From assembly GCA_002794775.1 (NCBI GenBank), contig NBAY01000015.1, forward strand, positions 372,001 through 436,000: a DNA stretch of 64,000 nt. The letters are read 5' to 3'. The position numbers and the translations under genes are program-made. This document shows, one piece after another, positions 7,055 to 33,731 of this stretch. This DNA comes from Porodaedalea pini (lineage: Eukaryota; Basidiomycota; Agaricomycetes; Hymenochaetales; Hymenochaetaceae). Within the stretch, counting starts at the first letter, position 1; the number at the start of each line of letters is the position of its first letter. Below the pieces are notes generated by a model. The model saw only the letters and a program-made list of their open reading frames with translations, searched no databases and was not told the origin of the DNA.

Positions 7055-7061
7055 CCTCACA
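7055..7061. repeat. left target-site duplication (CCTCACA) of the 26.7-kb element
   Basis: CCTCACA here and at 33,732-33,738, but present once in the uninterrupted units at 42,296-42,302 and about 47,750. Extending by one base on either side produces a mismatch, so the duplication is 7 bp, or 8 bp with one change. Confidence 0.8.
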
Positions 7062-7140
7062 CAGGCATCACAGCAAGTTAGATCAACGAAGGACTGATAA
7101 GTGGTTAGATCGGTTCAAAGCTCTGAACCGATCTAACTGT
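7062..7140. repeat. left terminal inverted repeat with perfect 14-bp hairpin
   Basis: It pairs imperfectly with 33,650-33,731 and shares CAAGTT and GGTTAGATCGGTTC in register, with one gap. Within it, 7104-7117 and 7124-7137 form a perfect 14-bp inverted repeat with a 6-nt loop. This is a likely transposase-binding site. Confidence 0.8.
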
Positions 7141-7350
7141 ATATTGAGTGTAGAGTTTTACAGTAACACTACTACATATGTAAAATAATGCTTCGTAAAA
7201 AAGAGAGATGAAAGAACGGTTCAAAATGCAAAGGAGAAAAGCTCAAATGAAAGGAGTAGAACAGATCAATATTCATGCGAGTAAAGGAAGTCTTGTCTGA
7301 GAGTATAGAATGGTTCACAGGGAGTGTTGATATTGGATGTATGAAAGATG

Positions 7351-10300
7351 TTAGAATGACTCCTTAATATAACAACTACCTGCGTGCTACAGACAGAAAA
7401 GTTAGACAACCCATATAAATGTAACACAAGAACTTACCACACTTACGAGGTTCATTAGGAGAAGACTTGTGTTTCAGTGGCTGATGAGTGTTTACTCCAG
7501 TGTTATGGGGTACTGTGTTCGAGGCTGAAGCCTCTTCTTCAAAAAGTAAGCCGCAGTCAGTAAATAGATCCCTAGCATTGCTAGCCATCACATGATAGAT
7601 GGCCTTTTTACGAGATGCATATGCAGAAGACCCAAGTGAGCCAGATCTTTGCATACTGGAAGCTGCCATAGCCCATGTCATTGACAGTGCCTCAAAGCCA
7701 CAAATCAATCTTTTGAACTCTTCCTTGACAATGATGATTTCTTCTTGCCAGTGATCCTGAGAAGCACATGAGTGGAACCAAAGTACACGATCCTCTACAA
7801 AAGCATCAGCTTGTGAGGTTTATGAGAAGCATGGATGTACCTTCTTTCACCCATTCCTGAGAGTCCCTTTCTTTGTGACCCATTTTCCATACCCATCCAT
7901 CAGTCTTCCCCCCCGACCCAAGTTCATGAGGTTCAGTGATTGAAGGGCGATACATATCCTCTTCTTTCAATGGATGTAGGGTAGTGTCCGCTTCATCCAT
8001 ACCCAGAGCAACAAGTGCAGCACATGTAGTCCAATATTCATTAGCCCATTTCCACTTCCTGTTGTCTGCCTGCTTTCACGCTCTCGCAGTCCTAGTCTTG
8101 TCTTGCTTTCCAAATCTGTATTTGTTTTGCTGGCTTTCTAAGTAGCTACATTCCCAAAGAGCAGCCTTTAGACCTTGGAGATCATCATACGCTTCACCTT
8201 CCTGCAGTTTGTACTCGATATCAGCAAGTTCTTCAAGATGATGGAATGCACATTCATCCTTGGTAAAGGAAGACGGGAGCCACAGATTCTCATCTTTGAT
8301 GTCACCCTTGTGCTCGTCAACGATCTCCTGCACACTTGGCATGAATAACACTTGCTGGGAGCGCCATTTCTTCACTTCATGTTCTAATGCAATGCGAGCG
8401 GATTTTAAGGACTGAAGTCCACTCTTGGACTTCAAGTCTCGCCTGTACATAAAATTTAGTTATATTATTGAAAATCATATGAGCGACAGACTGACTGACG
8501 AAACTGAATTGAAATTCCAGTACTTATGAATATAGCAGTTTTTCCTCTTGCTTTCAGATGGAGTCCATCCCCACATTTCAGCACCTCATTCTCAAGTGCC
8601 TTTGCTCGGGAAGGATCTAGGAAATGGCAAAGATTCAGTAAAATGGATTTGTGAGGCACAAGTGCAGGTTCCAACGACCGCAACAACTAATGTAACTTAC
8701 AAGTGAGATTGGGTTGATAGACACTAACCCATTCACCTTTCGAGTCCTTGTATGGCTGTGTGTCCATTCCCTCCCACTGCTTAATGAGTCTCTCACCATA
8801 TATATGCCACATGCTCGAATCTGAGGACTCAAAACTGATTTTTGCTTTATCAAAGGTTTCCTGCGCAATTTTATAGCGTCTAGCAAGAATTCGTGCTATG
8901 ATGTAAATTAGTATCTCCTGTCTTAATAGAGAGATGTTATTTAAGACATACCCAATGATTCAATCTTGGACCAGTTCCATGCTCCGATGATATCATCAAG
9001 GGTATCGCATCAATGTCCAGGTCCCATCTGCTTAGTACTTCCAGCAACCAGATTTGCTTCTGACCACCAGCGCTCAACTTCTTCTCCATCAGTACACCCA
9101 ACACCATCCGTATAATTAAAAGAAAATCCATATTGACATGATTCGATATGACCAAAGAGATGCAACTTGCCAACAAGAATCTTCATGTCACAAATCATGT
9201 CAACAGACTTGGGAAAGCACTTCTCAAACCTCTCTATGAGTTTTACGGAGTACTGGCAGCCTATATCGTATGATAGAATGAGTCATTGGATCAATTCCTT
9301 GCCTTTTAGAGCACCCGCCAGGGCATAATCAACATTGATGTGCCTATGAATACACCATGAGAGTTCAATTATGAGCGAGACTATCAGTGGATATATACTT
9401 ACCTTTTGCTGTACTGTAGATTAACTGCTCCCTCCGGCTCCCCAAGACCGTGCTTGCACAAAACCATAATGAGGCCACTGGCATTCTGGCCACAATGTTT
9501 CAACATGTTCACATTGTCAATCACATGAAATCTAGAACATGTAGATTTCTTCAAGTGCAGTCAGAATTAGATTATGATTATTTGTGTGGCTCACATACCT
9601 CCTCCTTGAGTTCACTGTATTTCTTTATATGCATATCTAGATCTTCTTGCTTTCTAACATATCCCCATCCACCTCACAATGCCTTCTTGTGAAGATTATT
9701 CTTTTTGTTCAAGCCAATGAGGTGGAAGTTCGCATTGACTGATATGTTCTTTTGATTCTTGTAGCTTTCGTTATAATGATCAGAAATAGAGCATAGTACA
9801 TGTTTGGAAAGCTTACTGTGGACTAAGATCCCATTCAGTATTGAGACTGGGAAGGGGACAAGCCAGACAGACAACTGCAAATGATCCACGTGGCTGACTG
9901 AGTGATGTATCATCAACCTTATGAAGCTGACCACTCCTCCACTCAGCAAGTAGGAACTGCCAGTAGTGCGCAATACGTATAAACTGCTGGGAAGGGACCT
10001 AATTTATCAGAATGAATTTGACTTCCAGGAAGACCGAATTCAATTAATCAAACATACCTTAACCTTTGAAGGAATGAAATTATTGGTCTTCTTTCAAAGC
10101 CTGATCATATAGTCATATGCAGACTTCTTTGAAACAGTAGTATGTGTATGAAAATCCTGCAGCGCATTAAACATGAATGCTACCTGGGGTAACTTGACAG
10201 ATGCGGGAAAGAGTCCATATCTTATTAGTTGTAAAATGACATCATCCTTTCCTGCACATGCACAGTATACAATCCAGCATTTATGTATCCCGTTTACATC

Positions 10301-11097
10301 TCCTATGGTAAAGTCATAGGCCTTAGAAGTGGCGGAAGGACATTTGTGGCCGGCATGCCCCAGATGAATCTTGAGACCCAAGAAAGTGAGATCGATGCGC
10401 TCAAAATATTTGCCAGTCCATCTCTCTGCCCAATGGAATGGGCAACAGACGTGATGCTCCAGTAAACATGTTTCGCAGACCACATTGACTCGCACACAGT
10501 CAAAGCAACGGTATAGGCGCAACTTCCCTTCCCTACCGCATTCACACAAACTACCAACATTCAGATCGTACTCAATGTCCATAATAAGGTCTTGGATTCT
10601 GCTCTTATATTCTGAAAACCCTGATAGCAGGTGTTCTGCAGATTGCAGCTTATTATATATAAGAAAGAGGACCTGAACAACAACATTGCATGCTTACCAT
10701 GATCACTTCGCTTTCGCTGTCTTGTGCTTCACTTTCTTCCCAGCAGGGAATTTGCAGTTCAAGGAGCTTGTGACATACATGTAAGTCATTATCATTGTAT
10801 GACGTTTTGTGGCCACTCACTGCTGTTGTCTCAGTAGGTTTTCTGACCGAGTTCATGGCATTGGCCATGAGTTGCTCTTGTGTGCTGTTCTGTCTCAAAC
10901 AAGTCAGGCAGTGTTCTTGCCAAAGCAGAGAAGGAACTTGCCTGTTGTAAGCACCCACCTGCTGACCTTGATTCAACTCCAGAAACATTGATCCCTTTGA
11001 CATCTTCATCGCTGTCACTGGTATCACTGCTGTCACTGTTGTGGCTCCTTACATAGTATTCATTTGCTTTAGGTAGGATGGAGGTCTTGCGAGCCAT
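7351..11097 (-). pseudogene. KDZ transposase with N-terminal CxC2 cysteine cluster, inactivated
   Basis: Multi-exon transposase gene of the RNase-H-fold KDZ superfamily. From the N-terminus: an acidic, serine-rich start (about 11,097-10,830); the CxC2 cluster at 10,582-10,094 with CECG, YRCFDC, CETCLLEHH and ERIDLTFLGL; a catalytic-core part near 9,750 reading VNANFHL; then YDIGCQYSV (about 9,270), KLHLFGHIESC, NYTDGVGCTDGEEVERWW and KQMGPGH (about 9,020); and the C-terminal region LWLPSSF (about 8,270) to GWVWKMGH. All of these match the family in order. Breaks: in-frame TGA codons just before YDIGCQYSV and just after KQMGPGH, plus Asn where the family normally has Asp in D-A-N-F. The three changes fit CpG to TpG/CpA transitions. 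There may also be a frame problem near 10,830. Exon limits are approximate. Confidence 0.88.
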
Positions 11098-11378: not shown

Positions 11379-12082
11379 CTATTTCAGCTCGACTTTCATC
11401 ACATTAGAGGCGAGCTCTTCCCAACAGTGTCTCTTATTCCCCAGAACACAGACTGTGACCTTCTTTGGGCCCCCATCTCTCTGTCAGGGCAGACCTGCTA
11501 CTTCCAGAATCCTGCCGACATGCACATCCAGAAACTTGGTCTGTGCTACAAGTTCTCCTTTTTTTGTGGGTATACGAGAACATAAGTCCGAAACTAGTAA
11601 CAGTGATGATGAAAATCCGTGGCCCGTGTCGACGTTAACATTGACACAACACCCACTGTGTGATGTCAAGCAATTCGTATGGTGGTCAAAGGGGTCGGTG
11701 ATGACGAGAACTCCAGATCTATCCCTTGGCAAGACTTTCACATGAACCTTGTAATTAGAAAATAACGCCCATATAGCGGGTGAAAGAATCCACATTCCAG
11801 GTCCAGAAAAGTCTACGAACTCATCAGCAAAGCCTAGATTACAAGTACATAACACATACCAGATAAAGGTACCAATTCAGCTGACTGGGATAATTCATCG
11901 GGCGTTAAGGCCCATTCATCGCCAGTTGATGAAGTCAACGCATGCGGTGGAGTGGAGGGACATGATATAAAGGAGGTCATACGCATGTCCTTAAACCTGT
12001 CCGCTGTAGCGCTCGATTCACGCTTAGGTGCCAGCCATCCCAGCATACCACCCGCTTTATTTATTATTATATACAGATACAA
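11379..12082 (-). pseudogene. 3' part of an Spt5-like gene, separated from its 5' part
   Basis: Minus-strand exons reading WALTPDELSQSAELVPL, a short intron, then ADEFVDFSGPGMWILSP, a stretch ending DVHVGRILEVAGLP, an in-frame TGA, and continued coding to the stop at 11379-11381 (NVMKVELK). The order and character fit the C-terminal part of the agaricomycete Spt5-like (NGN/KOW) proteins whose 5' part lies at 14,522-16,650 on the same strand. The TGA could have arisen from CGA. The C-terminal assignment rests on position and general resemblance, so it is weaker than that of the 5' part. Confidence 0.45.
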
Positions 12083-12818
12083 ACCCCATAAACACAGTCA
12101 AGCACCTCGTTTCATCACTGACTATCTTACACTTCGCATTTCACATGCTCAAATGGTCACACTCGGCCATTCGAGCATCAATATACCTTCGAATCTTTCA
12201 TATGATGCAGTAGTAACCTCATAAATATGTTCAAATACTTTCATACACCCATTCGAACACTCATACCACTTCCTAGTCACACTCGAACGCTTTGTTTCCT
12301 TTATATTCATTCCATATCCCACTATATGCACGCTCGAGCACTCTTTCCACTTCGTATCCACTCATTCAAACGCTTATAGCACAGCCGCATTACGTGGTTG
12401 GGCTCAGGGAACGCATTAGGTTCCACCATGGGTCGCTCGAACGGTTCCTGGGCCGTCGACGTTGAATGTATCACGCTCGAACGACCGGATTCCATCATTC
12501 GCCGTGTTCTCCATGGGGCTCGAGCATTATTTATCATTGTCTATCACTTCCAGGGGTGCATTCGTCGCCATCACGCCCCAGGAACATTTGAGGACGTTCA
12601 AATGGAGTTGTTGGAAGCACACATGATAAATTTCTTGGGTTTCATTGGTCTTTTTATTGATGTCGAACCATTATTCCCCTTTGAGTTTGTGACTCATCAT
12701 GTTCTCGAGTCATTCCATCCCTAACATATGACTATTCTGACTCGAATACACACCGCACGCACTCCCTTACCTCCGTATGTACGTTCGACGTTGGTACCGA
12801 GCTCGTTTCGCCTAGAGT

Positions 12819-12830
12819 ATAAATAGTGCA
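12819..12830 (+). promoter_or_regulatory. TATA-like element inside the 2.4-kb insertion
   Basis: AGTATAAATAGTG followed by a pyrimidine-rich stretch, the arrangement of a pol II core promoter. No downstream ORF is convincing, so it may be the promoter of a non-coding element. Confidence 0.35.
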
Positions 12831-13363
12831 CACCTTTTGTACTCATTCGGTAGAGGGAATACACCCCCAGTTCACCGCACAGTACACTTTTCGAGTCTCA
12901 TAAGTCATTCCCATCTTCAGTTCATCTCTGCTCTGCCTTAGCGAGCTTCGCCAACTGCTCGAATAGCGCGTTCGGTTCACCACATATGCTCGAAACCAAT
13001 ATTCCAAAACTCCGAGCACCCGACAAACCCAACAGGGTATTATACCTGCATACTTCCGTCACCCCACACGTTCGCCGCCTACTAAGAAGTCACTCGATCG
13101 CATCGGGATACGCTCGAACACCTTCAAGTGCGTTCGAACGCTCGACGAACACCATCCAGGGGTTCGAACCGTCCAAAACAGACTGACATGGCCCTGCACC
13201 TTCCTCAACTTCAGACTTCAATCACTATAGTTATAGGGTCTGCGTTGAGAGCTCGATTCTGTCAGGATCGAGCACTTTGGCAAAGTTTCTGAACCAGAAG
13301 AGCCATTGTCTCGACCGTTCGGTCACTCCGTTTCTATTTGGTCGTCCCTCCTCAACTATCGAG

Positions 13364-13427
13364 TCACCGCAGTCTTTCTTGGGAAGAATATAGATTCACC
13401 GCAGTCTTTCTTGGGAAGAATATAGAT
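13364..13427. repeat. tandem repeat, two perfect 32-bp copies
   Basis: The unit starting TCACCGCAGTCTTTCTTGGG occurs at 13,364 and 13,396, and a third copy begins at 13,428 but is lost after six bases. Confidence 0.85.
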
Positions 13428-14521
13428 TCACCCTTGAATCGACCGTACGGTCTACAAAAGAGTCTGCATCGCTGTGGAGATCCCAATGCCGCTGGCCTCG
13501 GAATCGGCTCTATTAGGTTCAACTCGACTCAGGACAGTCTTACAAGTATCCCGATGCATTTCAGGACAGTTTCAGTGTTTGGCAGTATTAACTCGACGCA
13601 TACAGCTTGGTTCTGCACCAGTGAGCCACCGAAGTCTGTTTTGGGTCACGTCTGGTATTGTTCCGAGCCTCCCGAAGCTTAATTACTCATGTTCTCAAGT
13701 TACGGCTCCGAGTTCCGGCTATTTGGTGTTGTTTGGCTAGAGCCTCCGGTCTGTCTTTGTGTCCTTTGTACGCCGCTCAGAGGCTCAACCCTCTGTTGGT
13801 TATTTAAACACTCATGTAAATGTCTCAAAAATACAAGTTTAGTTCCCCCGAGTCAGTCCCAGTCTTTAGTTCTCGTCTCCGTCGCCGTTCAGTGTCGTTC
13901 CGTCCGTTCCGTCCGTTCCGTCTCAAGTCCCGTTTTCGGCCAAATCTTGCTTTCGCTATATCGCCCTCAGTTCTTATCCGTTTCCCGAGCTCTCTTCAGA
14001 TTCTTGATCTCGTCGAAAATCGCTTTCGAACACTGTCTTTTCTTGCACGATTCCGAGCCCACATCGTAGAGCTACGAAAATAGCTTTTGGTTCCGGGAGT
14101 TCCGTGCGTTCCGCCAGCCGCAACCAGTGCAACTGCCATATCTCCGTCAATTCTGCACCGCATCTCGAGATCTTTTCAGATTCAGAATCGTCTCGACGAA
14201 TCGTTTCGATTACTGTCTTCACTGGCAAGTTTCCGAGCCCGGGTTGTCAAGATCGTAGTCGCTCTTTGTTCTCCGACCACATTTAGGCACGTTTTGCCGG
14301 TCGTCCTTTGTACTCGCGTCCTCAAGTCGACACCTAGCCCCGAGTATTCCCCTACACTTCCCTACACTTCCTGACACTATCCCCTCCATCAGACACGTTA
14401 GAGTGAACCCCCAGTGGCCGAACTCAACCAGGTCCGAGTCTGCCAGTAGACCGTACCGTCACCTTTCATCGCGATACCGCGTACTCAAGTCTTTCTGCGT
14501 CCGTCAAGGGATACAAATGAT

Positions 14522-16650
14522 CTAAACAGCAGATCTCATCGCTACATTCAGTGCCGCAGAATTAGCGGTAAATTGAGTTGATAAGCACGCAAGGATGCAC
14601 ATTGAGATCAGGCTTCTAAGGGCGAATGTATCGACAGTGTTTTTTGTGCCATAGGACACCTGCACTGTCTTGTTCGTCCTGTTGACGTTCATAACATATC
14701 CATGGAATCCCTTGGCGAACTTCACTTTACCCTCCTGGCCCCAAATAAGCACAAGCTTGCCTATATATGGATTGCATGCCTCTCATTCATATGCATACAG
14801 GTCCCTTATCTTGTTCTTCACCGTGTCATCGCACGAACATTCCTCAACTGAGTGCAAAGGCAGTTCGAGCTTAGCAGAGAAGTGATCAGCTTCACAATTG
14901 TGGCGCAATTATAAGACATACTGTTTGTATTATGCATTCGAACACACGCACTTGCACGACTTCCAATTTGACCTCTAAAACGAACCCTCTGTGGCCTTTG
15001 AACTGTCCATCCTTCAGCATGACACTAGCACCATACATTAAAGGTCGAATCCCGGCTTTGCATAGAAGTCCACTGTTAGCGACATCCATAGTTTTGACCC
15101 AACTTGATCTAATCTTCAGCTAGTGTTTAAAAAATGAATCCTATCAAAAAAATAAACCACAAATAATATAGATAATGCATACTAGATCCTCGTGTTCGCT
15201 TAGAAACAATGGTATTATTTTTTTTTTCGATTGCCACAATGAAACCTGACTTTCCCGAACATGGACCGGCTTTCACAGCGACGTTATCACCAATATTGAA
15301 GAGTCGACAAATAGCTTTCTGAGATACAGTGACATCCTGCAATACAGGCTCCAAATCCTGAAGATCCTGCACTTTTCCACAAGAAGTCAAAAACTCAAGC
15401 CCAGCGTTGTTGATCTCCTCGTCTGACATCCCAACCAAAATACTGTCTATGCGACAGACATGACCAAGAACAACAGACTTGTCATTAAGGGATGTGACCA
15501 TGCCAGCCATCATCTGGAATGGACCAGAAACTATTACCATGCTATCCCCATGTCGAACGTAGAATTCTACATCTTCAAGATTGCCAAGATCTGTATGAGA
15601 GAAAAGAAAAATATCGTGCAAAGTTGGGGAGGCTTGTCGTACGGAATGCAAGCTGGGTACAGTAAGAATTTGCAAGTTGTCCACATAGTCTGCCTTGCAA
15701 AATTTGAAGTGGTTGTTGGAGACGATGTGAAGTTTTTTTTTTTCCTGTGGAAATTGAGCAGCTAGATGTTCCGCAGTTACAAGAGCGCATTCCGCATGCT
15801 TTGACTGAACTCCTCCCTTTGTATGTATGTGCGGAATGATGGCTAGCTTCAGTGCGTCACCCTCCAACACTTTGCACATGATGGCAAGGTTGCCACAGTA
15901 TGTTCCTCGACGAATCAACACCCAGTTCCCAACATTGTATTTACTAGAATGCAGTCCGTCCCAACAATCGAATACAGAATTAACGTCAGCAAATGGAACA
16001 AAAGAAAGATAATGATTTGGCAACATAATGCCATGAGCAAGATATGAGTTGAAAATAATCTTTGCATTTGGAGCCCAGAAGTATATTCGGCCAGGAAGAG
16101 CCATCACAGCGAAAGCCAAGCACTGGTCTGGAAGCCAAACCTGAGCAAAAGCAGCCACTCTCATTTCCTTCCTGGGCTTTCAAATGAGATCAGCATTAGA
16201 TTGCAAAGCAACAAAGAATATAATACATACAGCAATGCGAAGCATCATTAGGTTGTACTTCAAATCATCGATTCCCATTTCTGGAGGGAAATGGCTGGTC
16301 CTTGGAATGGATCGAAGAACTGGGTGGCTCTCCTTGGAAAGACCATACGGGCAGGACCAGTGCGTGCACACTTCCTGAACCTCTCTGCAATACCCTCAAG
16401 ATCTTCCGTAGCACCTGAATCCAGCATAATACGAGATGAAGAAGCATGGTTAGTACTTGCAGGCAGATGAACATTGTCGTCAATGAAATCTAAATCTGTT
16501 CGATCATACATTTAGGCTTGGAAACATACAATCGACGGAGATACGTACCTTCTTCGTCATCACCAAATAAACTATCTTCATCATCGAAGACTTGCGCCTC
16601 ATTGTCAAGAAACATGGCAACTTGAGCATGAATGGTATCATCCTCCATCT
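14522..16650 (-). pseudogene. Spt5-like gene, NGN and KOW domains (5' part)
   Basis: Spt5 is the conserved transcription elongation factor that binds RNA polymerase; basidiomycetes also carry diverged multi-copy relatives. The N-terminus is acidic (MEDDTIHAQVAMFLDNEAQ at 16,650, then LFGDDEE and, after an intron, LDFIDDNVHL). An NGN-like stretch follows at about 16,150-16,000 (AVMALPGRIYFWAP), then KOW-type motifs: GNWVLIRRGTYCGNLA, GDSMVIVSGPFQMMAG, GDNVAVKAGPCSGKSGFIV, ASVMLKDGQFKGHRGFV (about 15,000) and GFHGYVMNV (about 14,700). Introns are short. The segment itself shows no certain stop, but the gene is separated from its likely 3' end by 2.4 kb and is unlikely to be functional. It is cargo of the KDZ element. 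Assignment to the Spt5-like family is firm; a role in transcription is inference. Confidence 0.7.
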
Positions 16651-18950: not shown

Positions 18951-19139
18951 CTTCATTGCCATCCTGCTTTATTTGCTCACCAAAGTATTCAGTGCAAGGC
19001 AAACAAGTATTTTCATCAGAAACCACTCAAGGGCGTGCAAATGAACGATGTGATGAGGGCTGCCTGCATTCACAAAATATTAGAATTGGAACCTCCTGTG
19101 ATCATTGGGAAAGCCACTTGAAGTGCAAACAAGAAGCTT

Positions 19140-19790
19140 TTGAAGGAACTTGTCCCCTATGGCTATCGAAAAAAGAATGTGAAGAAATTGGCTGAGCAAG
19201 TGGTGCGAAGCTTCAACAGCAAGTCCGATTCTGACTCTGACTCTGACTTTCACAAGAGTCCCGCCCTGGCTGGTGGACTATCGAAGTCTTCCCCTGCCAG
19301 CAAGACATCAAAGATGACATTCTCTTCAGACCACATCTCGAAATCATCTCTGATTCGCAAGGTGTCCGTTAGGTCTATGATCACTCCGATTGCACTGTCT
19401 ATGGCGCCAGTGACAAGTCTGCCAGCCACAGGCGAGGTACTTAAGAAGCTGCTCGATAGTATGACACCAAAGACACCAAAGAGGACAGTGATACGTGTGA
19501 AGGGAAACTCGAGACCCAGCTTTTCATCGCTTTCAGCAACTGGCAGTTCTTCTCTGCCGAGCCCACAAACTTTCATGTGTGAGATCAAGGCTTCATTCAA
19601 GACCACACCATGGATGAAGGCCTCCAGATTGACTTCAAACGAAGCGGGTCCATCGAAGGAGCTGGATATTATTGAGATCAGCTCATCAGATGAGGATGAC
19701 GGATACTTGTCTAGCCCACTTGCTCAAAAACAGCCTCGTACTACATCCATGGACAAGGACATGAGCAAGAAGAACGCCAAGAAGGCATGA
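19140..19790 (+). CDS. serine-rich protein of unknown function, cargo
   Basis: Uninterrupted 216-codon reading frame with strong low-complexity bias: a KSDSDSDSDFHKS stretch, many Ser/Thr/Pro and Lys, an acidic IIEISSSDEDDGYLSS segment near the end and a basic tail (KKNAKKA). The composition suggests a disordered nuclear protein. The SSSDEDD context resembles a SUMO-interacting or CK2-type motif, but that is only resemblance. An upstream exon may exist (18,867-19,121 is coding-like). It precedes the gene at 20,349-22,816 on the same strand and could belong to the same transcript. Confidence 0.4.
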   Translation: MKELVPYGYRKKNVKKLAEQVVRSFNSKSDSDSDSDFHKSPALAGGLSKSSPASKTSKMTFSSDHISKSSLIRKVSVRSMITPIALSMAPVTSLPATGEVLKKLLDSMTPKTPKRTVIRVKGNSRPSFSSLSATGSSSLPSPQTFMCEIKASFKTTPWMKASRLTSNEAGPSKELDIIEISSSDEDDGYLSSPLAQKQPRTTSMDKDMSKKNAKKA

Positions 19791-22816: not shown

Positions 22817-23653
22817 CAGCCATTTTCATAAGTCCTGCGACATGGGCATGTCATGTGAAGTGAGCCGCGGCTGAGCCAAAATGTCGAAAAATTAGAATGA
22901 ATGCCTATTTTCTCTGTGAATTCTGCACAGTACCTGCTCATTAAGTACTCAAAAAAAAGGCATGGTTCTCAGGAGCAGAAATATGTAGAATAGGGAGCAA
23001 TACATTGACTGTGTAGGCTGGTGGAGATCAAACAAGTGCAGCTGGTCTGTTCTCTCACCCATTTCCACTGAGATTCAAAAATTATGGCTCCCCTACATCT
23101 ACCTATAAAATTATTTCCTGTGTCTGTAAATTAAGTATATGACTATACCAACATCTCCTGCAAGTTTGAAGCCAATCCATTCAGTATTCATGGTACAGCA
23201 GCAAGATTTGTGTTCTACTCTGCAAGACCTGTTGTGAGAAAAGGAGGGTAGAAAGAGCTTGAAGTGGAACACAAATCTTGCTGCTGCACCATGAATACTG
23301 AATGGATTGGCTTCAAACTTGCAGGAGATGTTGGTATAGTCATATACTTAATTTACAGTCATGGGAAAGAATTTTATAGGTAGATGTAGGGAGCCATAAT
23401 TTTTGAATCTCAGTGGAAATGGGTGAGAGAACAGACCAGCTGCACTTGTTTGATCTCCACCTGATTACACGGTCAATGTATTGCTCCCTATTCTACATAT
23501 TTCTGCTCCTGAGAACCATGCATATTTTTTTGAGTACTTAATGAGCAGGTACTGTGCAGAATTCACAGAGAAAATAGGCATTCATTCTAATTTTTTGACA
23601 TTTTGGCTCAGCTGCAGCTCACTTCACGTGACATGCACGTGTCTCAGGACTTA
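22817..23653. mobile_element. foldback MITE 2, truncated at its right end
   Basis: Same family as MITE 1 and highly similar to it, with TA at 22,815-22,816 on the left. The right arm ends at CAGGACTTA and runs directly into the left end of another family member (TA then CAGCCATTTTC at 23,654), so the last bases of its own terminal repeat are missing. Confidence 0.8.
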
Positions 23654-23921
23654 CAGCCATTTTCATAAGTCCTGTGACACGTGCATTTCACATGAAATGA
23701 GCTGTGTCTGAGCCAAAACGTCAAAAAATAGAATAAATGTTGATTTTCTCTGTAAATTCTGCGCAGTACCTGCTCATTACAGCCATTTTCATAAGTCCTG
23801 TGACACGTGCATGTCATGTGAAGTGAGCTGCATCAGAGCCAGAATGTCAAAAAATTAGAATGAATGCCTATCTTCTCTGTAAATTCTGCACAGTACCTGC
23901 TCATTAAGTACTCAAAAATAG

Positions 23922-25778
23922 GCATGGTTCTCAGGAGCAGAAATATGTAAAATAGGGAGCAATAAGTTGACTGTGTAGGTGGGTGGAGATCAAACAAGTG
24001 CAGCCAGTCTGTTCTCTCACCCATTTCCACTGAGATTCAAAAATTATGGCTCCCCTACATCTACCTATAAAATTCTTTCCCATGACTGTAAATTAAGTAT
24101 ATGACTATACCAACAGCTCCTGCAAGTCTGAAGCCAATCCATGCAGTATTCATGGTGCAGCAGCAAGGTTTGTGTTCCACTTTGAGCTCTTTCCACCTTC
24201 CTCTTCTCACAACAGGTCTTGCAGCACGGGCAAGAAGACCGCTAAGATTATGATTCTTTTTGTGTAATTATCAGACACATAAAAGCCATCTTCCCTGCAA
24301 GTTTCCTGTCCATTCACTTTGTGCTTCGACTGCTATGCTCAAATTTCTGTGCATACTACCAACACCTGTGAGCACGTGAGCATGTGTTAGCCAAGCCACT
24401 GCCATGCAAACATGAAAGCCAACACTCTACTTCCTCCTCCTCTCAGGTCGTTCCATGATGGTTTCAGGCAAGGCACTCTCAGATGATGCAAGACACATCA
24501 TATTCAGACTGTATCAGTCACGACTCTTCACCGTGCATGACCTGGCCAGGGTAATAGATATCCATCGAGCAACAATCCACCAAACTGTTGCTCAACACAA
24601 GCACATGGGGCATTTACGACAGGAGGGCACAAGGACTGGAAGACCAAGGTTGCTTGATTATGCAGATACACAGGTGAGTGCATTTTTTGAATTGTAATGA
24701 CTCACTGTGGCTAACTGAACTATAGTATCTCTTGAGCACGATAGAGCATCGCAAGGACCAGTACTTAGATGAGGTGAGGGAGGAGCTGGAAAGGGTAACA
24801 GGCAAGAAGGTTTCAGACACTACAGTATGGAGGTCTCTGCACCGGGCTGGGTTCACTCTGAAGACGGTGTGGTGATGCTTATGGCTTCACATCAGCAAAC
24901 TTACTCTGCTCAAGATATTGAAAAGGGCACTTGAACGCAGCGAGTCCGCTCAGCTCTGGTACACATTGAGAATGGGATCTCAATATGAGGCAGAACAGCT
25001 TGTCTTTGTCAACGAGAGTGCATGCGACTGATGTACCTTCTTGAGGAAGAAAGCATGGGCTTTGCAGGGTTATCAGGCATGTCAGAAAGTGATCTTTACA
25101 CAGGGAAAAAGGTGTGATGCTTACCTTTATGACTGCAGATCTGACTGCTTACCTCTTCTAGGTATTCGATCTTGCCCACAATCACTTCGACTGGCATGCT
25201 TGACTGTACAATACTGGAAGGATCCTTCAATGCCACCTCCTTCTCCACATTTATCAGGGATCTCTTGGACCACATGCAACCTTGGCCAGCCCAAAGTTCT
25301 GTCGTGGTGATAGACAACTGCACAATCCACAAGTCACTGGAAATCCGCAAACTCATTGAGTCAAGGTCCGTCTATTTTGACCTGTCATGCTGCAATGCAG
25401 GGCTCTTACTGATCTGACTCTGCACAGGGGCATGAAACTGGAATTTCTCCCTGTGTATTCTCCGGACTTCAACCCAATTGAGCTGGCATTCTCTCTGCTG
25501 AAATCTCAACTTTGTCAGGTCAAATTCAGTGATGAGGAAACGGACACTTTGGTATTCGCGAAGCTTTATGGTGAAACCATGTCTATCAGTGCTGCAGACT
25601 GTTGTGCTTTCTATCATCATTGCAGTTATCTCTGTTAGTGTCGGGTTTCTTCATCGAGTGGATACAGGCTTCCTTGTCACTGTCTCAACTGGTCCAACAA
25701 TGTAATATATTCTGTCTATATGATGTACACATAACTACTGTTCCTTGATGTGAGAAACATCCTCCTGCGCATATCGAA
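23922..25778. repeat. left arm of the long inverted repeat
   Basis: Reverse complement of 31,099-32,955, with no net length difference over 1,857 bp and identical translated segments. Its inner edge (25,735-25,778) is a copy of the last 44 nt of the cargo gene at 29,306-31,142, including its stop codon. Confidence 0.9.
24455..25638 (+). pseudogene. Tc1/mariner-type DD34E transposase, left copy, inactivated
   Basis: N-terminal helix-turn-helix region with HDLARVIDIHRATIHQTV and GRPRLLDYADTQ, then an intron at about 24,674-24,724. The catalytic domain has LVFVNESACD at about 25,005-25,030, an intron at about 25,108-25,161, VVVIDNCTIHKS, a 66-nt intron at 25,365-25,430 and FLPVYSPDFNPIE. With that intron removed, 34 residues separate the second Asp from the Glu, the canonical DD34E spacing. 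Lesions: the first catalytic Asp is Asn (VFVNES), a TGA follows SACD where the family usually has Arg, and the frame breaks near 24,870. GAC to AAC and CGA to TGA both fit CpG decay. A cut-and-paste transposase by family, but it cannot be active as written. Confidence 0.85.
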
Positions 25779-25789
25779 CAGTGTGAGTG

Positions 25790-25935
25790 AGTAATGCAAG
25801 ACTTGTCTCAACCTCTGCATCCTTCGCTCTTGGACCATATGCAGTCTTGCCATGCCCAAAGGCTATTGTAGTGATGGACAATGAGTTGAGCAGTGCAGAA
25901 CATCACGCACTCCATCATCATGGTCACTTTCTAGC
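25790..25935 (+). pseudogene. relic fragment of a second Tc1-type transposase
   Basis: TTGGACCATATGCAGTCTTG and the following bases, up to GATGGACAATGAG, resemble the transposase stretch at about 25,263-25,320 (DHMQPWPAQSS to VVIDN), at clearly lower identity and with stops. It lies just inside the left arm and is absent from the right arm, so it predates or is separate from the arm duplication. Confidence 0.5.
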
Positions 25936-26207
25936 AGTAAACTTCAATCATTGAATAAATAAAATGTACATTCTACACAACTAATCATACAAAACCCTGG
26001 TATTTCTGTATGAAAGAAGACTTAGTAGGAGGAATACAAAAGGAAATAGTAGACAAAAGGATTTGAGGCTATGCAAGAGCATGTGTCTGATTGTTCAGAC
26101 CAATTTGATCCATGCTGGAGTCCCTCCTCATTACCGCCGCTTCAGTGACCACCTTGGACACCTCGAGGTCATTGTCATGATGTCAGAGCAACTCTTCCGG
26201 AACTCTC
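25936..26207. other. unassigned sequence inside the composite
   Basis: No feature recognised. It lies between the relic transposase fragment and the 3' end of the minus-strand cargo gene. Confidence 0.3.
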
Positions 26208-28961
26208 TCAGTGATGTCCATGTCTACCCCCTCTTCTGGAGTAGCTGTATTCCCATCTCTGGTCATCTCTATCCTCTCTTCCGGAGTGGTAGTCGTGTCT
26301 CCATTTCCGGTTGCTTCTACCCTCTCTTCTACCCTCTCTTCTGTAGTTCTCGTAAGTCTGATCCCAGTCAATGGGGGGAGGTGGCCAGAATGAGGACAAA
26401 GTGAGGAGGGACCAGGATGTGTTTCCATGAGCCATGCCTCCCCTTCCGGCATTAAACAAATGAGAGGGGCCTGGCTGGAGTGAGGACAAAGTGGGGGGGG
26501 GGGATGGCAGGGATGTGTCTCCACGAGCCATGCCTCCCCTTGAATTAGAGGGGCCTTCGTCATGCGGGTAATCCAATTGATTCTTTTTTTTCTCTGGCCT
26601 CATCATAAGGGCATGATCATCAGTGGGACACTTGCAAAATGAGTTCGCAGATGACGATGGATAGGATTGCAATGCACTAGATTCCCATTCACTGGATCAC
26701 ACCGCATTGTCCACATGTGGAAGGGGGAACCCTACACTTATAGGTCTGTCAGGGATACTGTTATGCATGTTGATTCCCTGCTGGATGGCCAAAATCGCTC
26801 TGAAATGTGGAGCACACTCCTTAAACTTCCCCTGCAAAACGCCACGCTCCTCCAATGCTTTTATTGCAGCTTTATAAGATTTCACAGGCTCAGACATATC
26901 ATGGGCACCTCCATGTAATGCAGTTATGAGTGAGTCATAGGCATCTTCCTGCAATAGAATGTTAGCAATTCTGTCCTCCAAGAGCTTGAGAGCTGCCAAT
27001 AGTGCAGACAGGTCCTTGATGAAAGGCATATATGCCCTAAGATTCCTGTAATTCCTGGATAGCAAGTGCTTCAGACTGCCCACTGGCGCACTGGCCTCTG
27101 TGAGAAGTACTCGGTTGTCCAGTTCTTTGTATGACAAGCTTGCTTCATTACAAGGACCCACAACAAGACTGACATATTCTCTCATTTGACTATCGGCCGA
27201 CTTGAAATCATATTTTTCCATTCCCTCCAGTTGTGGTATCGGGGAAGCACTAAACAAGATATCCACATCCTCTTTTTGTTGCCTGAAGGCGAGACCAAGT
27301 ACGTATGCGATTCGGTTGACAGAATCACGTGTAAGTCTCTTTTTCAAATCAAATTGCACGCCCAATACAGTATCGCAAGGGGTAGAGCCCACATTGGAGA
27401 GTTGGGAAGAGTGCGTGGAGTAGTGAGCAGAGCCTCTTTTAGGCCAACTCTTTTTATACTTTTGCTGATACTGATCAAAAATCCACATCACTTTGTGGCC
27501 TGTGAAACTCTCAATTTTGCTCTTAGTCTCGGGTTTCCCCTGTAGCTCCATGGATATCTTGGATGCCTGTGGAAGTCTGCTCCTAATAACTTCCACCAGA
27601 ACATAAGCATCCACATCACTGTATTGGGCCTGGTTGCAGAAAGGTTTGCAATTTTCATATCCTGCCTGTTCTACCCTCACAGCAAAGGAAAGCGAAGTGT
27701 TCATCTCCTAGAAACTCAGCCGTTCATGAGCATGCATAAAAGCAACTACCAAGTCATGCAAGTTTTGGACTACCTTCTCTCTGTCATAGTTCAGATAGAG
27801 TTGCCCGAGATTGAATGTGTAGTTTTTTGTTATATTGGCAATTGATTTGAATGCCTCAAAGGGCATGCCAGGGCCTGCCTTTGGGGTTTGAGCGCACTGC
27901 ACAAGGTCCCTCAAGACCTGTTTGTATGACCACAGGTCATACACTGTGTTTTGCTGAATATGAGGGTGGTCAATCAGGATGAAATAATGAATCCTTTTAG
28001 GCTTGCAGACATCCTCATTATTTGAAGTGTTTCCTGAGCAGTAGCAAATCTGCAGGACACGCTCCACAACACTGAATCCCATAAGGAGTATAATCTTTCC
28101 TTCCTCGATTAATTTTCAAAGGTGCAACTTATCTGCCGCTTCAGGCTCCTAAATCAGAATGTGAGAATCAAGTAGAGTGATACTAGAGAAGGAGCTTTAC
28201 CCTGAGAATAGCATCCGTATGAAGACTAAGTACACTATGTATTTCATCTTCTACTCGATGCGCATTGATTTCGCTTTGTTCACTTTTCTCCTCCAATGTA
28301 TTAACCCGATCCGTGACAATAAGAAGGCCAACCTGGGCCTCTGAAGAACGTGCCTCATCAGCTGCAGCAACATCTTGAACAGTTCGAAGCACAGTGGCCT
28401 CACTTGTGTGGATTTGTGACTCAAGTTGGGTCATCCTAGCCAAGAGAGAATCATAATCTTTTCTGGCGTGAAGACGTTTTTTATGCCGCTTTGACTTTTC
28501 CTCAATCTGACCATGCTTAGCAACAGCTGCCTCCACAATTACCACAACTTCGTCATAGGACTATGATGCCTTCACTTGAATGAGCTGCTTCTTTAGTGCT
28601 GCACTTTCGGACGCTGAAAAATAGTGCACAGATGCATCAGGACAATCCCGCAGCAATTGTATAAATAGTACTTATGGCTACTACGACTAGATTCCTCCCC
28701 TGAACTCTCTCAAGCCACTTCCTTTCCCTTTCCTTTTGAATCATTCTCTGCAGGTCCTTCAGAAGAAACTTCATCTGACATCACGTCAGAAGGGCCCATG
28801 GAACTTACCAGGGAAGACATATGCTTACCAGATAGCACCTCTTGCAACTGCTCAGAGTCTTCCATGGTGTCTTCATGATCATGAACTTCACTGGGTGCTA
28901 CACAAAATGCCTGTTTGTAAGCCACCAAAGACTTAGAACATGGCGATCTATTCCATACCAT
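26208..28961 (-). pseudogene. large cargo gene of unknown function, coiled coil to Arg-rich tail
   Basis: One reading path across four blocks: an acidic start at 28,961 (HEDTMEDSEQLQEVL, then SKGKGKE); a coiled-coil-like block at 28,640-28,190 (LLARMTQLESQIHTSEATVL); a central globular block at 28,140-26,700 (for example IHYFILIDHPHIQQNTVYDL and RNLRAYMPFIKDLSALL); and an Arg/Gly-rich tail at 26,690-26,208 (SNSRGGMARGD, REGRREGRSNRKWRH). Single stops between blocks at about 28,562 (TAG), 28,107 (TGA), 27,708 (TAG) and 26,697 (TGA) do not change the frame. Two could come from CGA by CpG decay and two from CAG by C to T. One intron lies near 28,140-28,195. The RGG-type tail suggests nucleic-acid binding, which is inference. 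No known family recognised. Confidence 0.5.
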
Positions 28962-29305
28962 TAACCATGACTATGTCACTGGAAGGATCCATAGGATGCT
29001 ATCCAGCTTGTCCTTCCATAGCAATGAGTACTTATAGGGGTGAGCGATGAGGCGGGAGAGCAAGACTGATGGGGATGGGAGGAGAAGGATGAGAGATAAA
29101 GATGAGACTGGTGCATTTTGATGCCCTGAACCCTCCTTTTGTATTCTTGCTGCATTGGGATAGCCAGTTCCCTACCTTCAACCTTGGTCCACAATGGCTC
29201 AGTTGGCATGAAAGCAATAGTCATGAAGGAGGTAGAGGTCGCTGACATCTTTCGGGAGGCTTAGGTACCAAAATATTCAGTAAGCAAAAATATCCAATGC
29301 TCTAA
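28962..29305. promoter_or_regulatory. shared divergent promoter region of the two cargo genes
   Basis: A 344-bp spacer between the starts of the minus-strand and plus-strand cargo genes. No clear TATA box is seen on either side. The divergent layout suggests coordinated expression, which is inference. Confidence 0.35.
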
Positions 29306-31142
29306 GTGAAATCAAATTGTGTTTCTTTTCCTGACCCCACAATGCTGCCTCAACATGTCAGAAAGAAGTCCAAAAATCTCAAAGACGGCAAAGAACTAGC
29401 TGCAGAATTAGCTATGCAGATGAAGAAATGCCCTGTTGGTTGCTCCAGGAAAAATGAAGTCCCCAATCAGGTCCCCGAAACTCCCACAAAAAAGCAGTCA
29501 AAATTGAGTGGGAAGAAATATGCTACAACAGCAAAGCCGACCTGCTGAACTGTGAGTTGTGAAATTTGATGCAAATGCTCTCTCTGACCGATTTTCATGC
29601 CCATAGCCATGCAAGAAGGGCAATGACAAGGATACAGTTGAACAGGAGCATTTGCCTGAAGATCAGGGGGATATATCCATTGCAGACGTCGTTTGGGCTT
29701 CAGGACTTGGCTTGAATGACACTATGAATGAAACACAGGGTTTTGACAATGACAGATTGGCCTTTGATGAAATTCCTGACTCCCCTGACAAGCCTGATGA
29801 GTGTTCTTTCCATCTTGATGATGGTATGAAACCTCCATTCATTGTTGCCTAAGGCTGTGGCTAAGAAAAGTATAGCTGGCAAGTACGTGGACTGGAATAC
29901 TCCCTCCCTTGGACATGCAAAAGCTTATGGATGGATCACATTGACACCTGCTGCAGAGAAAAAGCCCAAACTGGAAGTCATGGTAAAAATTCATGACGGT
30001 ACTGGCATGCGAGACATGAAGATCAACTCCAAGATGTTGCTGGCTGATTTGATCAATGAAGCGGTTTCAATCACCCAGGGCCATTCTACATTCGACCAAC
30101 TTGGTTACACAGCTTGCTGGTCTGTGAAGTCTGGGACAAAGCTCAAACCAGAATATTTGAATACACAAGACCAGTTGGACGCGCTGTTCAAATGAGTTCA
30201 CAGGCATCAAGCAGCTGAAAAGAAGAAGAAATGAGGTAACGAAAACCCTGAAATTGTCATTCAGAATCTCAGTAATCAGGTTTGTCTATAGTATTTGATG
30301 TATAAAGTGGTTCCTGACATGCAGTGAAGAATACACATGGGAACAATGGGAACAGCAATAAACAGCAAAGTGCGACTAGAACAAATGTGACTCCTTCAGG
30401 GGTCACTGGTGCTAAGGAAGCTTATGATGCTGCACTCAAACGGATTATGGTGCAAATTGCAGCAGCATTCAAATGTGATAAACACGACAGCAGGCTCTGT
30501 GGTAAAATAAGAGGGTCAAAAGACCATCTTATGTATTCCAACAAACATCTTGTTGAACATGCAAAACTGATTGTGAGTCCATTGACAAAGCACAATCTCA
30601 CTGGACTAAAAGCATACTTTGTCCAGTATAAGAATACTCCCAGAGTCAAAGTGGATGAAGTACTGGGGCAACTGAAAGTATTGGACAAGCAGTGGAAAGC
30701 AGCTGACAATGCCAGTGCAGGAACTGGCTCTGACATAGCAACTGGGCCTACAACATCCCTCCCCAACAGTGCTCCTGTGACAGCCAGAACAGTGGCAACT
30801 GTAGTGCCAATGCAACCTTTCAACCAGCCAGTCATTGCCCAGCACTATGAAATGCATAACCAGGTGATAGCTGAGCGCAGGCCACGCAATTACCCTTCTG
30901 TTTGGAATTGGATTGAATCATTGCACGATGACATGGAGAGAGGCCACGATGACTACCAATACAGGTCTCTGCTACCTGTTTTCGAGGCCAATGATGTTAA
31001 ACACTTGGATGACTTGGCTTACTTAGAATTTGGAAGGCTTGAGAAGATGGTTATTGATGCTCAAGTGGAGGCAAGCATTGGGTTACTCAATCATATCATT
31101 CGATATGCACAGGAGGATGTTTCTCACATCAAGGAACAGTAG
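29306..31142 (+). CDS. plus-strand cargo gene of unknown function
   Basis: Exonic blocks: 29,306-29,548 (Lys-rich, CPVGCSRKNEVPN), 29,605-29,852 (acidic, DIPDSPDKPDE-like), 29,848-30,195 (KYVDWNTPSLGHAKAYGWIT), a decayed or spliced part at 30,195-30,320, and 30,324-31,142 (273 codons). The last block ends with YPSVWNWIESLHDDMERGHD and FEANDVKHLDDLAYL, which looks like a small helical SAM-type domain. Likely short introns near 29,549-29,605 and 30,285-30,325; a TGA at 30,193-30,195 needs splicing or is a lesion. The final 44 nt lie inside the right arm and are duplicated in the left arm, so this gene was next to the transposase copy when the arm was duplicated. Function unknown. Confidence 0.5.
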
Positions 31143-33098
31143 TTATGTGTACATCATATAGACAGAATATATTACATTGTTGGACCAGTTGAGACAGTGA
31201 CAAGGAAGCCTGTATCCACTCGATGAAGAAACCCGACACTAACAGAGATAACTGCAATGATGATAGAAAGCACAACAGTCTGCAGCACTGATAGACATGG
31301 TTTCACCATAAAGCTTCGCGAATACCAAAGTGTCCGTTTCCTCATCACTGAATTTGACCTGACAAAGTTGAGATTTCAGCAGAGAGAATGCCAGCTCAAT
31401 TGGGTTGAAGTCCGGAGAATACACAGGGAGAAATTCCAGTTTCATGCCCCTGTGCAGAGTCAGATCAGTAAGAGCCCTGCATTGCAGCATGACAGGTCAA
31501 AATAGACGGACCTTGACTCAATGAGTTTGCGGATTTCCAGTGACTTGTGGATTGTGCAGTTGTCTATCACCACGACAGAACTTTGGGCTGGCCAAGGTTG
31601 CATGTGGTCCAAGAGATCCCTGATAAATGTGGAGAAGGAGGTGGCATTGAAGGATCCTTCCAGTATTGTACAGTCAAGCATGCCAGTCGAAGTGATTGTG
31701 GGCAAGATCGAATACCTAGAAGAGGTAAGCAGTCAGATCTGCAGTCATAAAGGTAAGCATCACACCTTTTTCCCTGTGTAAAGATCACTTTCTGACATGC
31801 CTGATAACCCTGCAAAGCCCATGCTTTCTTCCTCAAGAAGGTACATCAGTCGCATGCACTCTCGTTGACAAAGACAAGCTGTTCTGCCTCATATTGAGAT
31901 CCCATTCTCAATGTGTACCAGAGCTGAGCGGACTCGCTGCGTTCAAGTGCCCTTTTCAATATCTTGAGCAGAGTAAGTTTGCTGATGTGAAGCCATAAGC
32001 ATCACCACACCGTCTTCAGAGTGAACCCAGCCCGGTGCAGAGACCTCCATACTGTAGTGTCTGAAACCTTCTTGCCTGTTACCCTTTCCAGCTCCTCCCT
32101 CACCTCATCTAAGTACTGGTCCTTGCGATGCTCTATCGTGCTCAAGAGATACTATAGTTCAGTTAGCCACAGTGAGTCATTACAATTCAAAAAATGCACT
32201 CACCTGTGTATCTGCATAATCAAGCAACCTTGGTCTTCCAGTCCTTGTGCCCTCCTGTCGTAAATGCCCCATGTGCTTGTGTTGAGCAACAGTTTGGTGG
32301 ATTGTTGCTCGATGGATATCTATTACCCTGGCCAGGTCATGCACGGTGAAGAGTCGTGACTGATACAGTCTGAATATGATGTGTCTTGCATCATCTGAGA
32401 GTGCCTTGCCTGAAACCATCATGGAACGACCTGAGAGGAGGAGGAAGTAGAGTGTTGGCTTTCATGTTTGCATGGCAGTGGCTTGGCTAACACATGCTCA
32501 CGTGCTCACAGGTGTTGGTAGTATGCACAGAAATTTGAGCATAGCAGTCGAAGCACAAAGTGAATGGACAGGAAACTTGCAGGGAAGATGGCTTTTATGT
32601 GTCTGATAATTACACAAAAAGAATCATAATCTTAGCGGTCTTCTTGCCCGTGCTGCAAGACCTGTTGTGAGAAGAGGAAGGTGGAAAGAGCTCAAAGTGG
32701 AACACAAACCTTGCTGCTGCACCATGAATACTGCATGGATTGGCTTCAGACTTGCAGGAGCTGTTGGTATAGTCATATACTTAATTTACAGTCATGGGAA
32801 AGAATTTTATAGGTAGATGTAGGGGAGCCATAATTTTTGAATCTCAGTGGAAATGGGTGAGAGAACAGACTGGCTGCACTTGTTTGATCTCCACCCACCT
32901 ACACAGTCAACTTATTGCTCCCTATTTTACATATTTCTGCTCCTGAGAACCATGCATATTTTTTTGAGTACTTAATGAGCAGGTACTGTGCAGAATTTAC
33001 AGAGAAAATCAACATTTATTCTATTTTTTGACGTTTTGGCTCAGACGCGGCTCATTTCACGTGAAATGCACATGTCGCAGGACTTATGAAAATGGCTG
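31099..33098. repeat. right arm of the long inverted repeat and right element end
   Basis: Mirror of the left arm up to 32,955. The outermost 143 bp differ from the left arm's adjoining copy but match the extra terminal segment at 23,654-23,777. It ends GGCTG followed by TA at 33,099-33,100. Confidence 0.88.
31239..32422 (-). pseudogene. Tc1/mariner-type DD34E transposase, right copy, inactivated
   Basis: Mirror image of the left copy with identical encoded segments: HDLARVIDIHRATIHQTV, VFVNESACD then TGA, VVVIDNCTIHKS and SPDFNPIE. It carries the same Asp-to-Asn change and the same stop, so both copies became inactive before or during the event that made the arms identical. It faces the cargo genes. 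Confidence 0.85.
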
Positions 33099-33100
33099 TA

Positions 33101-33650
33101 AACCATGAGTATCTTTTTCACTTATTAATTACACAAAAAAGTCTGAATGTTTTGTGCAGGCAGGGGTTGGACCTCGACCTGCCGAAAAATAAGAAACATA
33201 GGAAGTAGGCCAAATGGCATTATGTTTGAATGGCTGCTAATTTTGGGGCTTGATTATGTTCTCGTAACTAATGCACTCTTTCTCATTTATGCCATCCTGG
33301 GTTTAATAGAACCGTTCAAGCAGAGAATGGTTATAATTCTCAGCAACGGTTTTTCCTCTTTTTCTTTTTCTTTTTCTTTTTCTTTTTCTTTTTCTTTTCT
33401 TCCTATAGTGATCCGTTCTCATTTGAACTGATCGCGCATAGTTGGATATTGATTTCATAAGAACCGTTCAAGCGGATAACAGTTATAATGTCAGCAGAAG
33501 TTTCTTTTCCTATCCTTTTACTTTTTTTCCCATTCTGATCCGTTTTCAGTTGAACGGATCTTGTGTAGTTAGGCTTGGACATTGGACAGTTCACATGTTG
33601 TGTCATGATCCATTCAAAACAGTGCACTTGTACATAGACTGTATATATAT
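33101..33650. repeat. subterminal palindrome array of the KDZ-type element
   Basis: Several copies of GAACCGTTCAAGC and of GATCCGTT...GAACGGATC, for example GAACCGTTCAAGC at about 33,311 and 33,461 and imperfect hairpins at about 33,409-33,433 and 33,539-33,562. They share their core with the terminal GGTTAGATCGGTTC hairpins, as expected of clustered transposase-binding sites. No coding sequence. Confidence 0.65.
33354..33401. repeat. hexanucleotide microsatellite (CTTTTT)n
   Basis: About seven to eight tandem CTTTTT units between two of the subterminal palindromes. It is not a telomeric repeat. Confidence 0.9.
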
Positions 33651-33731
33651 ATATTAGATCAGTTCTTAAGACAAAGAACCGATCTAACCGGTTTTCGGTC
33701 TCTCCGATGAACGAACTTGATGTGAAGTTAC
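33650..33731. repeat. right terminal inverted repeat of the KDZ-type element
   Basis: Its reverse complement aligns with 7062-7140 (CAAGTT, GGTTAGATCGGTTC) and it also forms a stem between TTAGATCAGTTCT and AGAACCGATCTAA. Its outer edge is at the 7-bp duplication. Confidence 0.8.

Follow-up and report, generated by a model that had tools for sequence, protein, structure and literature searches.

A KDZ-superfamily transposon of Porodaedalea pini and its Spt5-like gene

The insertion and its genes

The window analysed here is a stretch of 64,000 nucleotides of the Porodaedalea pini contig NBAY01000015.1 (C15:372001-436000, where C and a number denote a contig of the surveyed genome, 53.3 Mb in 201 contigs). 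Its positions 7062-33731 are a single transposon of the KDZ superfamily, a name reportedly introduced by Iyer et al. in 2014, inserted in a repeat unit with a 7-bp target site duplication. The extent of the whole element, including nested DNA and given on the forward strand, was established by end searches and the pairing of copies. The motif CCTCACA flanks it at 7055-7061 and 33732-33738, as a sequence-only reading of the window had stated, and comparison with sister copies and empty units identifies the two occurrences as the left and right copies of the duplication, both on the forward strand. The same reading had described two sister units as uninterrupted and a third as split by 26,670 bp, and the alignments of both flanks agree with it at the insertion base. 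Identity to the units at 42.3 and 47.75 kb is 98% and 96%, respectively, for the 53 bp that end the left flank, and 82% and 79% for the 361 bp that open the right flank; in both units the match crosses from the left to the right flank at the insertion base, as in empty sister sites. Both units are thus read through, but the straight-through string that had been attributed to them, CCAGCCTCACAAC, is present in exact form only in the 42.3-kb unit, the 47.75-kb unit having TCAGCCTCACAAC. DNA searches of the same genome with both flanks gave no second full-length flank match that could represent an empty allele elsewhere, and 12 of the 16 right-flank matches and all 17 left-flank matches lie on C15.

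The left terminus (7062-7137, forward strand) begins with CAGGCATCACAGCAAGTT and contains a subterminal hairpin at about 7104-7137, with 14-bp arms that are matched throughout. It is followed by a damaged KDZ transposase gene on the reverse strand (7436-10648), recovered as six tblastn segments against a spliced gene model built, like the other models used here, from the copy on C76; the CxC2 and KDZ domains are seen in sister copies. The Spt5-like gene that had been claimed for the interior of the element is indeed found there, also on the reverse strand and by its match to the C76 model, as a 3′ part at 11388-11858 and a 5′ part at 14594-16505 with an open exon of 350 amino acids (15130-16179). 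The two parts are separated by a nested insertion of about 2.5 kb (12003-14480), which is not at this place in uninterrupted copies. Two further genes lie on the forward strand, namely gene 3 (19035-19784, from its match to the C76 model) and gene 4 (21466-22144, from tblastn segments), the latter followed by a further open frame at 22147-22857. Between them, copy comparison reveals a nested insertion of about 0.85 kb (20508-21358) that matches itself in both orientations and resembles a miniature inverted-repeat transposable element (MITE). The right terminus (33653-33731, forward strand) ends in GAACTTGATGTGAAGTTAC and has its hairpin at about 33653-33688, with 13 matched positions in 14-bp arms; both hairpins were located by scoring.

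Between gene 4 and the right terminus lies nested DNA of 10.3 kb (22816-33099 in the copy comparison), which contains one MITE (22814-23653) and a composite element (23777-33101). Self-comparison of the latter gives terminal inverted repeats of 2.05 kb, 98.3% identical, whose tips match the MITE, in line with the nested composite transposon that had been proposed. None of five frames inside it has a Pfam match above the cut-off, and it may be a larger relative of the ~850-bp MITE. The MITE shows an apparent TA duplication; as cargo of the KDZ element it was rejected, related sequence being at other places in other copies. The earlier reading also needs correction in that the window copy is damaged by indels, by in-frame stops in the transposase, the Spt5-like gene and gene 3, and by nested DNA within the Spt5-like gene.

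The transposase model has 952 amino acids and contains KDZ (6e-54) and CxC2 (5e-28) domains by Pfam; a frame on C93 gives KDZ (PF18758) at 1.7e-35 and CxC2 at 2.1e-29. All four values are above the cut-off, and in both C76 and C93 the CxC2 cysteine cluster is located upstream of the KDZ domain. The KDZ match of the window copy (C15:380974) is also above the cut-off, with two stops inside, in agreement with the assignment of a KDZ transposase to the left end. Every one of the seven named database relatives of the protein belongs to a basidiomycete; the three best matches are those of Sanghuangporus and Coniferiporia and an unnamed contig protein. A tree of ten rows, eight of them database relatives, has a group of four that includes the three best relatives, with a support of 92/97, which is below the tool's mark for strong support.

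The Spt5-like model (811 amino acids, C76) matches KOW in three stretches (1.5e-14, Pfam); the window exon alone gives 0.0057, below the Pfam cut-off, and the sister copies are above it. Among 7994 scored candidates the only match to the model is a hypothetical protein of 821 amino acids from Sanghuangporus baumii, which aligns over 98% of the length at 32% identity and thereby supports the spliced model; a search with the two-row alignment again returned the Sanghuangporus protein alone among 7994 scored candidates. The profile of these two sequences matches solved Spt5 structures, with a best value of 3.6e-15, whereas the plant chain "RNA-directed DNA methylation 3", which we take to be KTF1, scored only 0.35 in the structure profile search. 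Residues 22-119 of the window exon weakly match a frame that overlaps the NGN stretch at C24:294683, presumably the host Spt5 (5e-5, 30% over 98 residues). The models of gene 3 (about 236 amino acids) and gene 4 (454 amino acids) have no Pfam match above the cut-off, and the gene 4 profile gave one match among solved structures, with an E value of 0.99.

Copies, core and ends of the element

Used as a query, the first 139 bp of the element give eight genome matches that start at base 1, and the last 152 bp give eight that end at base 151 or 152, the window's own end being included in each case. These matches, together with the KDZ domain of the window copy, bear out the proposal of a KDZ transposon with defined ends. 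Seven copies were paired and read, which belong to subfamily A (C15, 26,670 bp; C3, 14,732 bp; C138, 38,247 bp) or subfamily B (C93, 13,096 bp; C45a, 13,099 bp; C10, 14,396 bp; C45b, 50,071 bp), two close subfamilies with aligned columns about 81-82% alike in comparison with C93. The 7-bp target duplication is exact in six of the seven, C45a having one mismatch. An 8-bp reading is also possible for C138, but the seven copies taken together are best read with 7 bp; the window element thus differs from Zisupton and Dileera, which belong to the same superfamily and have 8-bp duplications (PMC12730594). C93 and C10 have a common insertion site, with flanks 97-98% identical where alignable, so that the seven elements represent six sites, and C138 shares a 97% identical flank with C129, of which the right end alone was seen. 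On account of the shared flanks, both pairs are taken as alleles or duplicates. For a further left end at C23:109607 no right end was found, and no core sequence follows its first 267 bp within the next 29 kb. An assembly artefact was rejected in view of the further copies with both ends and target duplications.

C93 and C45a align from end to end without interruption at 94.5% identity, and the core of the element is therefore 13.1 kb. Relative to these two, the window copy has three extra stretches (at about 12003-14480, 20508-21358 and 22816-33099) that together amount to ~13.6 kb of nested DNA. The earlier figure of 26.7 kb is therefore ruled out as the size of the mobile unit.

A third subfamily is represented by C76, whose aligned pieces are 66-80% like C3. 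Searches with the two ends of C76 allowed eight more elements to be paired by coordinates: C76 (12,333 bp), C54 (12,349 bp), C38 (13,265 bp), C21 (12,345 bp), C3b (13,736 bp), C1 (18,558 bp), C24 (19,822 bp) and C46 (19,039 bp). On the KDZ side, the matches of five of the seven other elements start exactly at the tip, while that of C3b starts 2 bp inside it; the alignment places the tip of C21 7 bp within its match and that of C3b 2 bp beyond its match, and the end match of C21 extends 7 bp outside its tip. C76, C54, C38 and C21, with ends 98-100% identical, form what appears to be a young subfamily. Only one of the two C76-type ends was found on C31.

In total, 15 copies are paired with both ends, seven by end matches and eight by coordinates, and by coordinates all 15 contain KDZ, Spt5-like and gene 4 matches; gene 3 was found in all eight copies read. 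Ends that bound elements lacking a KDZ gene, which would have spoken against the assignment, were thus not encountered among the 15. The Spt5-like gene is likewise carried by every paired copy and is not peculiar to the window copy.

The left end reads CAGGCAYCACAGCAAGTT and the right end, read inwards, GTAACTTCACATCAAGTT. The element starts with CAGG and ends with GTTAC (GTTAT in C138 on the 7-bp reading), the other end being GTAA when read inwards. Compared in register, the ends of three copies have 27-28 of 60 positions identical, against 19 in shuffles (P 0.0008-0.003). The imperfect inverted repeats that had been noted are therefore real but weak. Of 16 ends examined, 15 (13 of 14 in subfamilies A and B, both in C76) have a subterminal hairpin whose arms are 11-16 bp long and whose start lies 41-48 bp from the tip. 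The hairpin scores are 9-15, where the best of 60 shuffles per end gives 6-9; the left end of C10, with a score of 9, is barely above its own best shuffle of 8. Only the right end of C45b departs from the pattern, and its sequence is unlike that of the others from about 50 bp onwards. Each arm in C76 has a sequence different from that in subfamilies A and B, and yet the two pair (GATCGGTTC/GAACCGATC as compared with GAACGGATC/GATCCGTTC). The hairpin is a candidate binding site of the transposase. The end types are swapped between subfamilies, the CAGG end of the C76 type being on the gene 4 side and its GTAA end on the transposase side, the reverse of A and B.

Among known systems, the element is like Kyakuja (PMC12730594) in having a KDZ transposase, 7-bp target duplications, a CA start and an extra protein gene that is apparently kept. 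Kyakuja as published was nevertheless rejected as an assignment, because its termini are 5′-CA..TG-3′ without terminal inverted repeats, whereas the present element has CAGG...GTTAC termini, or CAGG/GTAA when both are read inwards, and has hairpins and weak inverted repeats. A further difference is the extra gene, which is TET/JBP in Kyakuja (PMC12730594), while an Spt5-like gene and two genes without Pfam match are found here and no TET/JBP above the cut-off. KDZ1, KDZ2 and KDZ3 of Cryptococcus, elements of about 9-11 kb that were shown to move, resemble the window element in their KDZ transposase with a CxC domain, terminal repeats and target duplications, but have terminal inverted repeats of 139-241 bp, duplications of 4-8 bp and CxC1 instead of CxC2 (PMC12810828).

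Conservation and linkage of the Spt5-like gene

The ratio dN/dS was calculated by the Nei-Gojobori method for codons aligned to the C76 models in five pairs between subfamilies A and B. The values are 0.14-0.17 for KDZ, 0.25-0.30 for the Spt5-like gene, 0.23-0.27 for gene 3 and 0.39-0.44 for gene 4, with a highest bootstrap upper limit of 0.60, while control values from the same codons shifted by 1 or 2 bases in the pair C3-C45a are 0.68-1.37. All four genes thus look to be under purifying selection between the subfamilies. In four pairs within subfamilies dN/dS is higher (0.33-0.61), which we read as a probable relaxation of constraint after insertion.

Genome-wide, 56 Spt5-like matches were reduced to 44 start points (12 further pieces being dropped) and 42 loci, and 77 KDZ matches to 53 loci (24 further pieces being dropped); both searches score the best candidates only, and the counts of loci are lower bounds. 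A KDZ locus is located within 12 kb of 32 of the 42 Spt5-like loci, where about 1.0 is expected by chance, and conversely 32 of the 53 KDZ loci have an Spt5-like match within 12 kb. One more Spt5-like locus (C45:312025) lies inside C45b, in which nested DNA stretches the distance beyond 12 kb, and brings the linked total to 33 of 42. At five loci (C1:2296645, C1:2568395, C7:321325, C107:34669 and C3:920094), Spt5-like genes with an identity of about 40% to that of the transposon have no KDZ match within 12 kb; these genes possibly belong to another carrier or are host-domesticated copies.

Twelve of the linked pairs constitute a second group, in which weaker Spt5-like matches (30-35%) lie beside other KDZ genes. 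One of these loci, on C5, was read: its KDZ domain scores 4.4e-59, its CxC1 match stays below the cut-off, and an Spt5-like exon in divergent orientation gives KOW at 1.4e-5 and matches Spt5 structures at 2.7e-8. Its KDZ domain is 28% like that of C76 over 145 residues and stands apart in the ten-row tree on a very long branch, a placement that the tool marks as unsure. The Spt5-like proteins of C5 and of the first group are 26% identical over 503 amino acids (E 5.8e-27), as compared with only 5e-5 for the window exon against the presumed host Spt5. Because the two transposon proteins match each other better than the window exon matches the presumed host protein, the comparison suggests that the gene was acquired once, long ago, and not captured twice. 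In the first group, four loci (C2:439-447k, C23:54-64k, C67:61-71k and C46:207-216k) have the KDZ and Spt5-like genes on opposite strands, unlike in the window's family and like at C5, which indicates that the gene order changed while the gene set stayed together.

The copies C93, C45a, C10, C45b, C3, C15 and C138 were also compared for the decay of CpG sites. In seven same-subfamily pairs, 60-73% of the CpGs found in at least one of the two copies are decayed in its partner, while transversions number 24-73 in 12,163-13,085 positions (<1%) and non-CpG transitions amount to 1.9-3.3%, a figure that also takes in sites at which the two copies possibly lost a CpG in different ways. Transitions make up 91-96% of the differences in four within-subfamily pairs. 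The contexts ACG and TCG occur somewhat more often than CCG and GCG, with none dominant. The CpG ratio of C76 is 1.02, as expected for a young copy. Slow loss of methylated CpGs may be the source of the decay. Such strong CpG-specific C-to-T decay between close copies contrasts with the statement in PMC12730594 that hypermutation was not detected in Agaricomycotina.

Possible role of the Spt5-like protein

The window element is very probably a damaged, once mobile KDZ DNA transposon with a ~13-kb core of four genes, which encode the KDZ transposase, a KOW-containing Spt5-like protein and two further proteins. The transposase would recognise the imperfect terminal repeats together with the hairpin sequence, would cut with a 7-base stagger and presumably works as in other KDZ elements. 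Since its insertion the window copy has decayed and acquired at least three further insertions.

Spt5 normally helps RNA polymerase to read through chromatin, KOW domains bind nucleic acids, and many transposons capture host genes. The Spt5-like gene gives the impression of a component kept by selection and not of chance baggage. That KDZ transposons of this fungal lineage encode their own Spt5-like elongation factor, which serves them in transcription through methylated or silenced chromatin or in transposition, has in our estimate a little less than an even chance. Selection and co-inheritance suggest that the element makes use of the protein, and our first guess, made because other KDZ elements carry TET/JBP and the present copies show CpG decay, is transcription through silenced DNA: the protein would help RNA polymerase II to transcribe the CpG-mutated, presumably methylated element, in place of TET/JBP. 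We put this specific role forward tentatively, with somewhat less confidence than the broader claim. TET/JBP-carrying Kyakuja elements occur in Agaricomycetes, and TET/JBP is thought to counter methylation (PMC12730594); in the present genome TET/JBP has no match above the cut-off and one sub-threshold match, on C6. The transposon protein has KOW domains in common with Spt5 and with KTF1/SPT5L, the plant Spt5-like protein of RNA-directed DNA methylation (PMC3111484), and matches Spt5 structures.

The main rival to the transcription role is a role in transposition, in which the protein would, for example, bind DNA or RNA beside the transposase or deliver the latter to transcribed targets. The nucleic acid binding of KOW domains is compatible with it, as is the fact that the gene accompanies the transposase in the first KDZ group and adjoins other KDZ genes. 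The present results fit both roles alike; we hold the role in transposition to be somewhat less likely than that in transcription, but ahead of the alternatives that follow. According to one of these, a host Spt5-related gene and the two others were captured passively and ride along without serving the element. The damaged genes of the window copy and the higher dN/dS within subfamilies would fit passive capture, but the A-B values of the three extra genes (0.23-0.44, bootstrap upper limits at most 0.60) are below the controls, the Spt5-like model aligns over nearly its full length with the Sanghuangporus relative, and other KDZ genes have a linked homologue of the protein. Passive capture is therefore improbable. 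Much more so is the proposal that KDZ elements prefer to insert near members of a host family made up of the Spt5-like and other genes. The linkage statistic taken alone would also fit such a target choice, the 12 pairs of the second group being known from gene linkage and not from ends. However, the gene matches lie between both ends in all 15 paired first-group elements, the two sister units of the window insertion site are read straight through, and the flanks of the seven read copies differ except for C93/C10. Target preference in place of carriage was rejected on the ground that the ends bracket the gene matches.

Several observations weigh against a mobile element served by its own Spt5-like factor. 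Pfam did not report Spt5-NGN in the transposon model (C76), and the genome's single Pfam NGN match is the one at C24:294683. The AlphaFold model of the 350-residue exon, based on two sequences, has a pLDDT of 36. Because the codons of the dN/dS analysis are those alignable to the C76 models, conserved codons are favoured, and the contrast is smallest for gene 4 (0.39-0.44 against controls of 0.77 and 0.89). All seven A/B copies have in-frame stops in the aligned codons of the transposase and the Spt5-like gene, and C76, the sole C76-type copy read, is without matching 7-bp flanks. Nine of the 42 Spt5-like loci have no linked KDZ match (the presumed host Spt5, the five ~40% identical genes, C25, C106 and C7:834k), and 21 of the 53 KDZ loci have no Spt5-like match within 12 kb, two of which (C45:275372 and C45:299198) lie inside the swollen C45b.

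TET/JBP genes were already known from KDZ elements, which may thereby escape silencing, and the new aspect here is the conserved Spt5-like partner. The available text of PMC12730594 and of the main part of PMC12810828 contains no occurrence of Spt5, and that of PMC12730594 none of KOW. A conserved Spt5-like partner of KDZ elements was not found in the searchable full-text literature, outside which most subscription papers lie, and its novelty is provisional. If the proposal is correct, two deep KDZ groups would have kept a counter-silencing gene of a second kind, beside TET/JBP. The retention of a relative of a universal transcription elongation factor, under selection and over deep divergence, would mark elongation as a further step that hosts and transposons contest. 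With C76, C54, C38 and C21, the young subfamily makes the service role testable.

The surroundings of the insertion (window 1-7061 and 33732-48190, and C15:322-576 kb) consist of diverged repeat units, 67-89% alike and in both orientations, and form an array that is almost confined to contig C15. The frame at 39148-39720 has a cyclin match just above the cut-off, and nine other frames have none.

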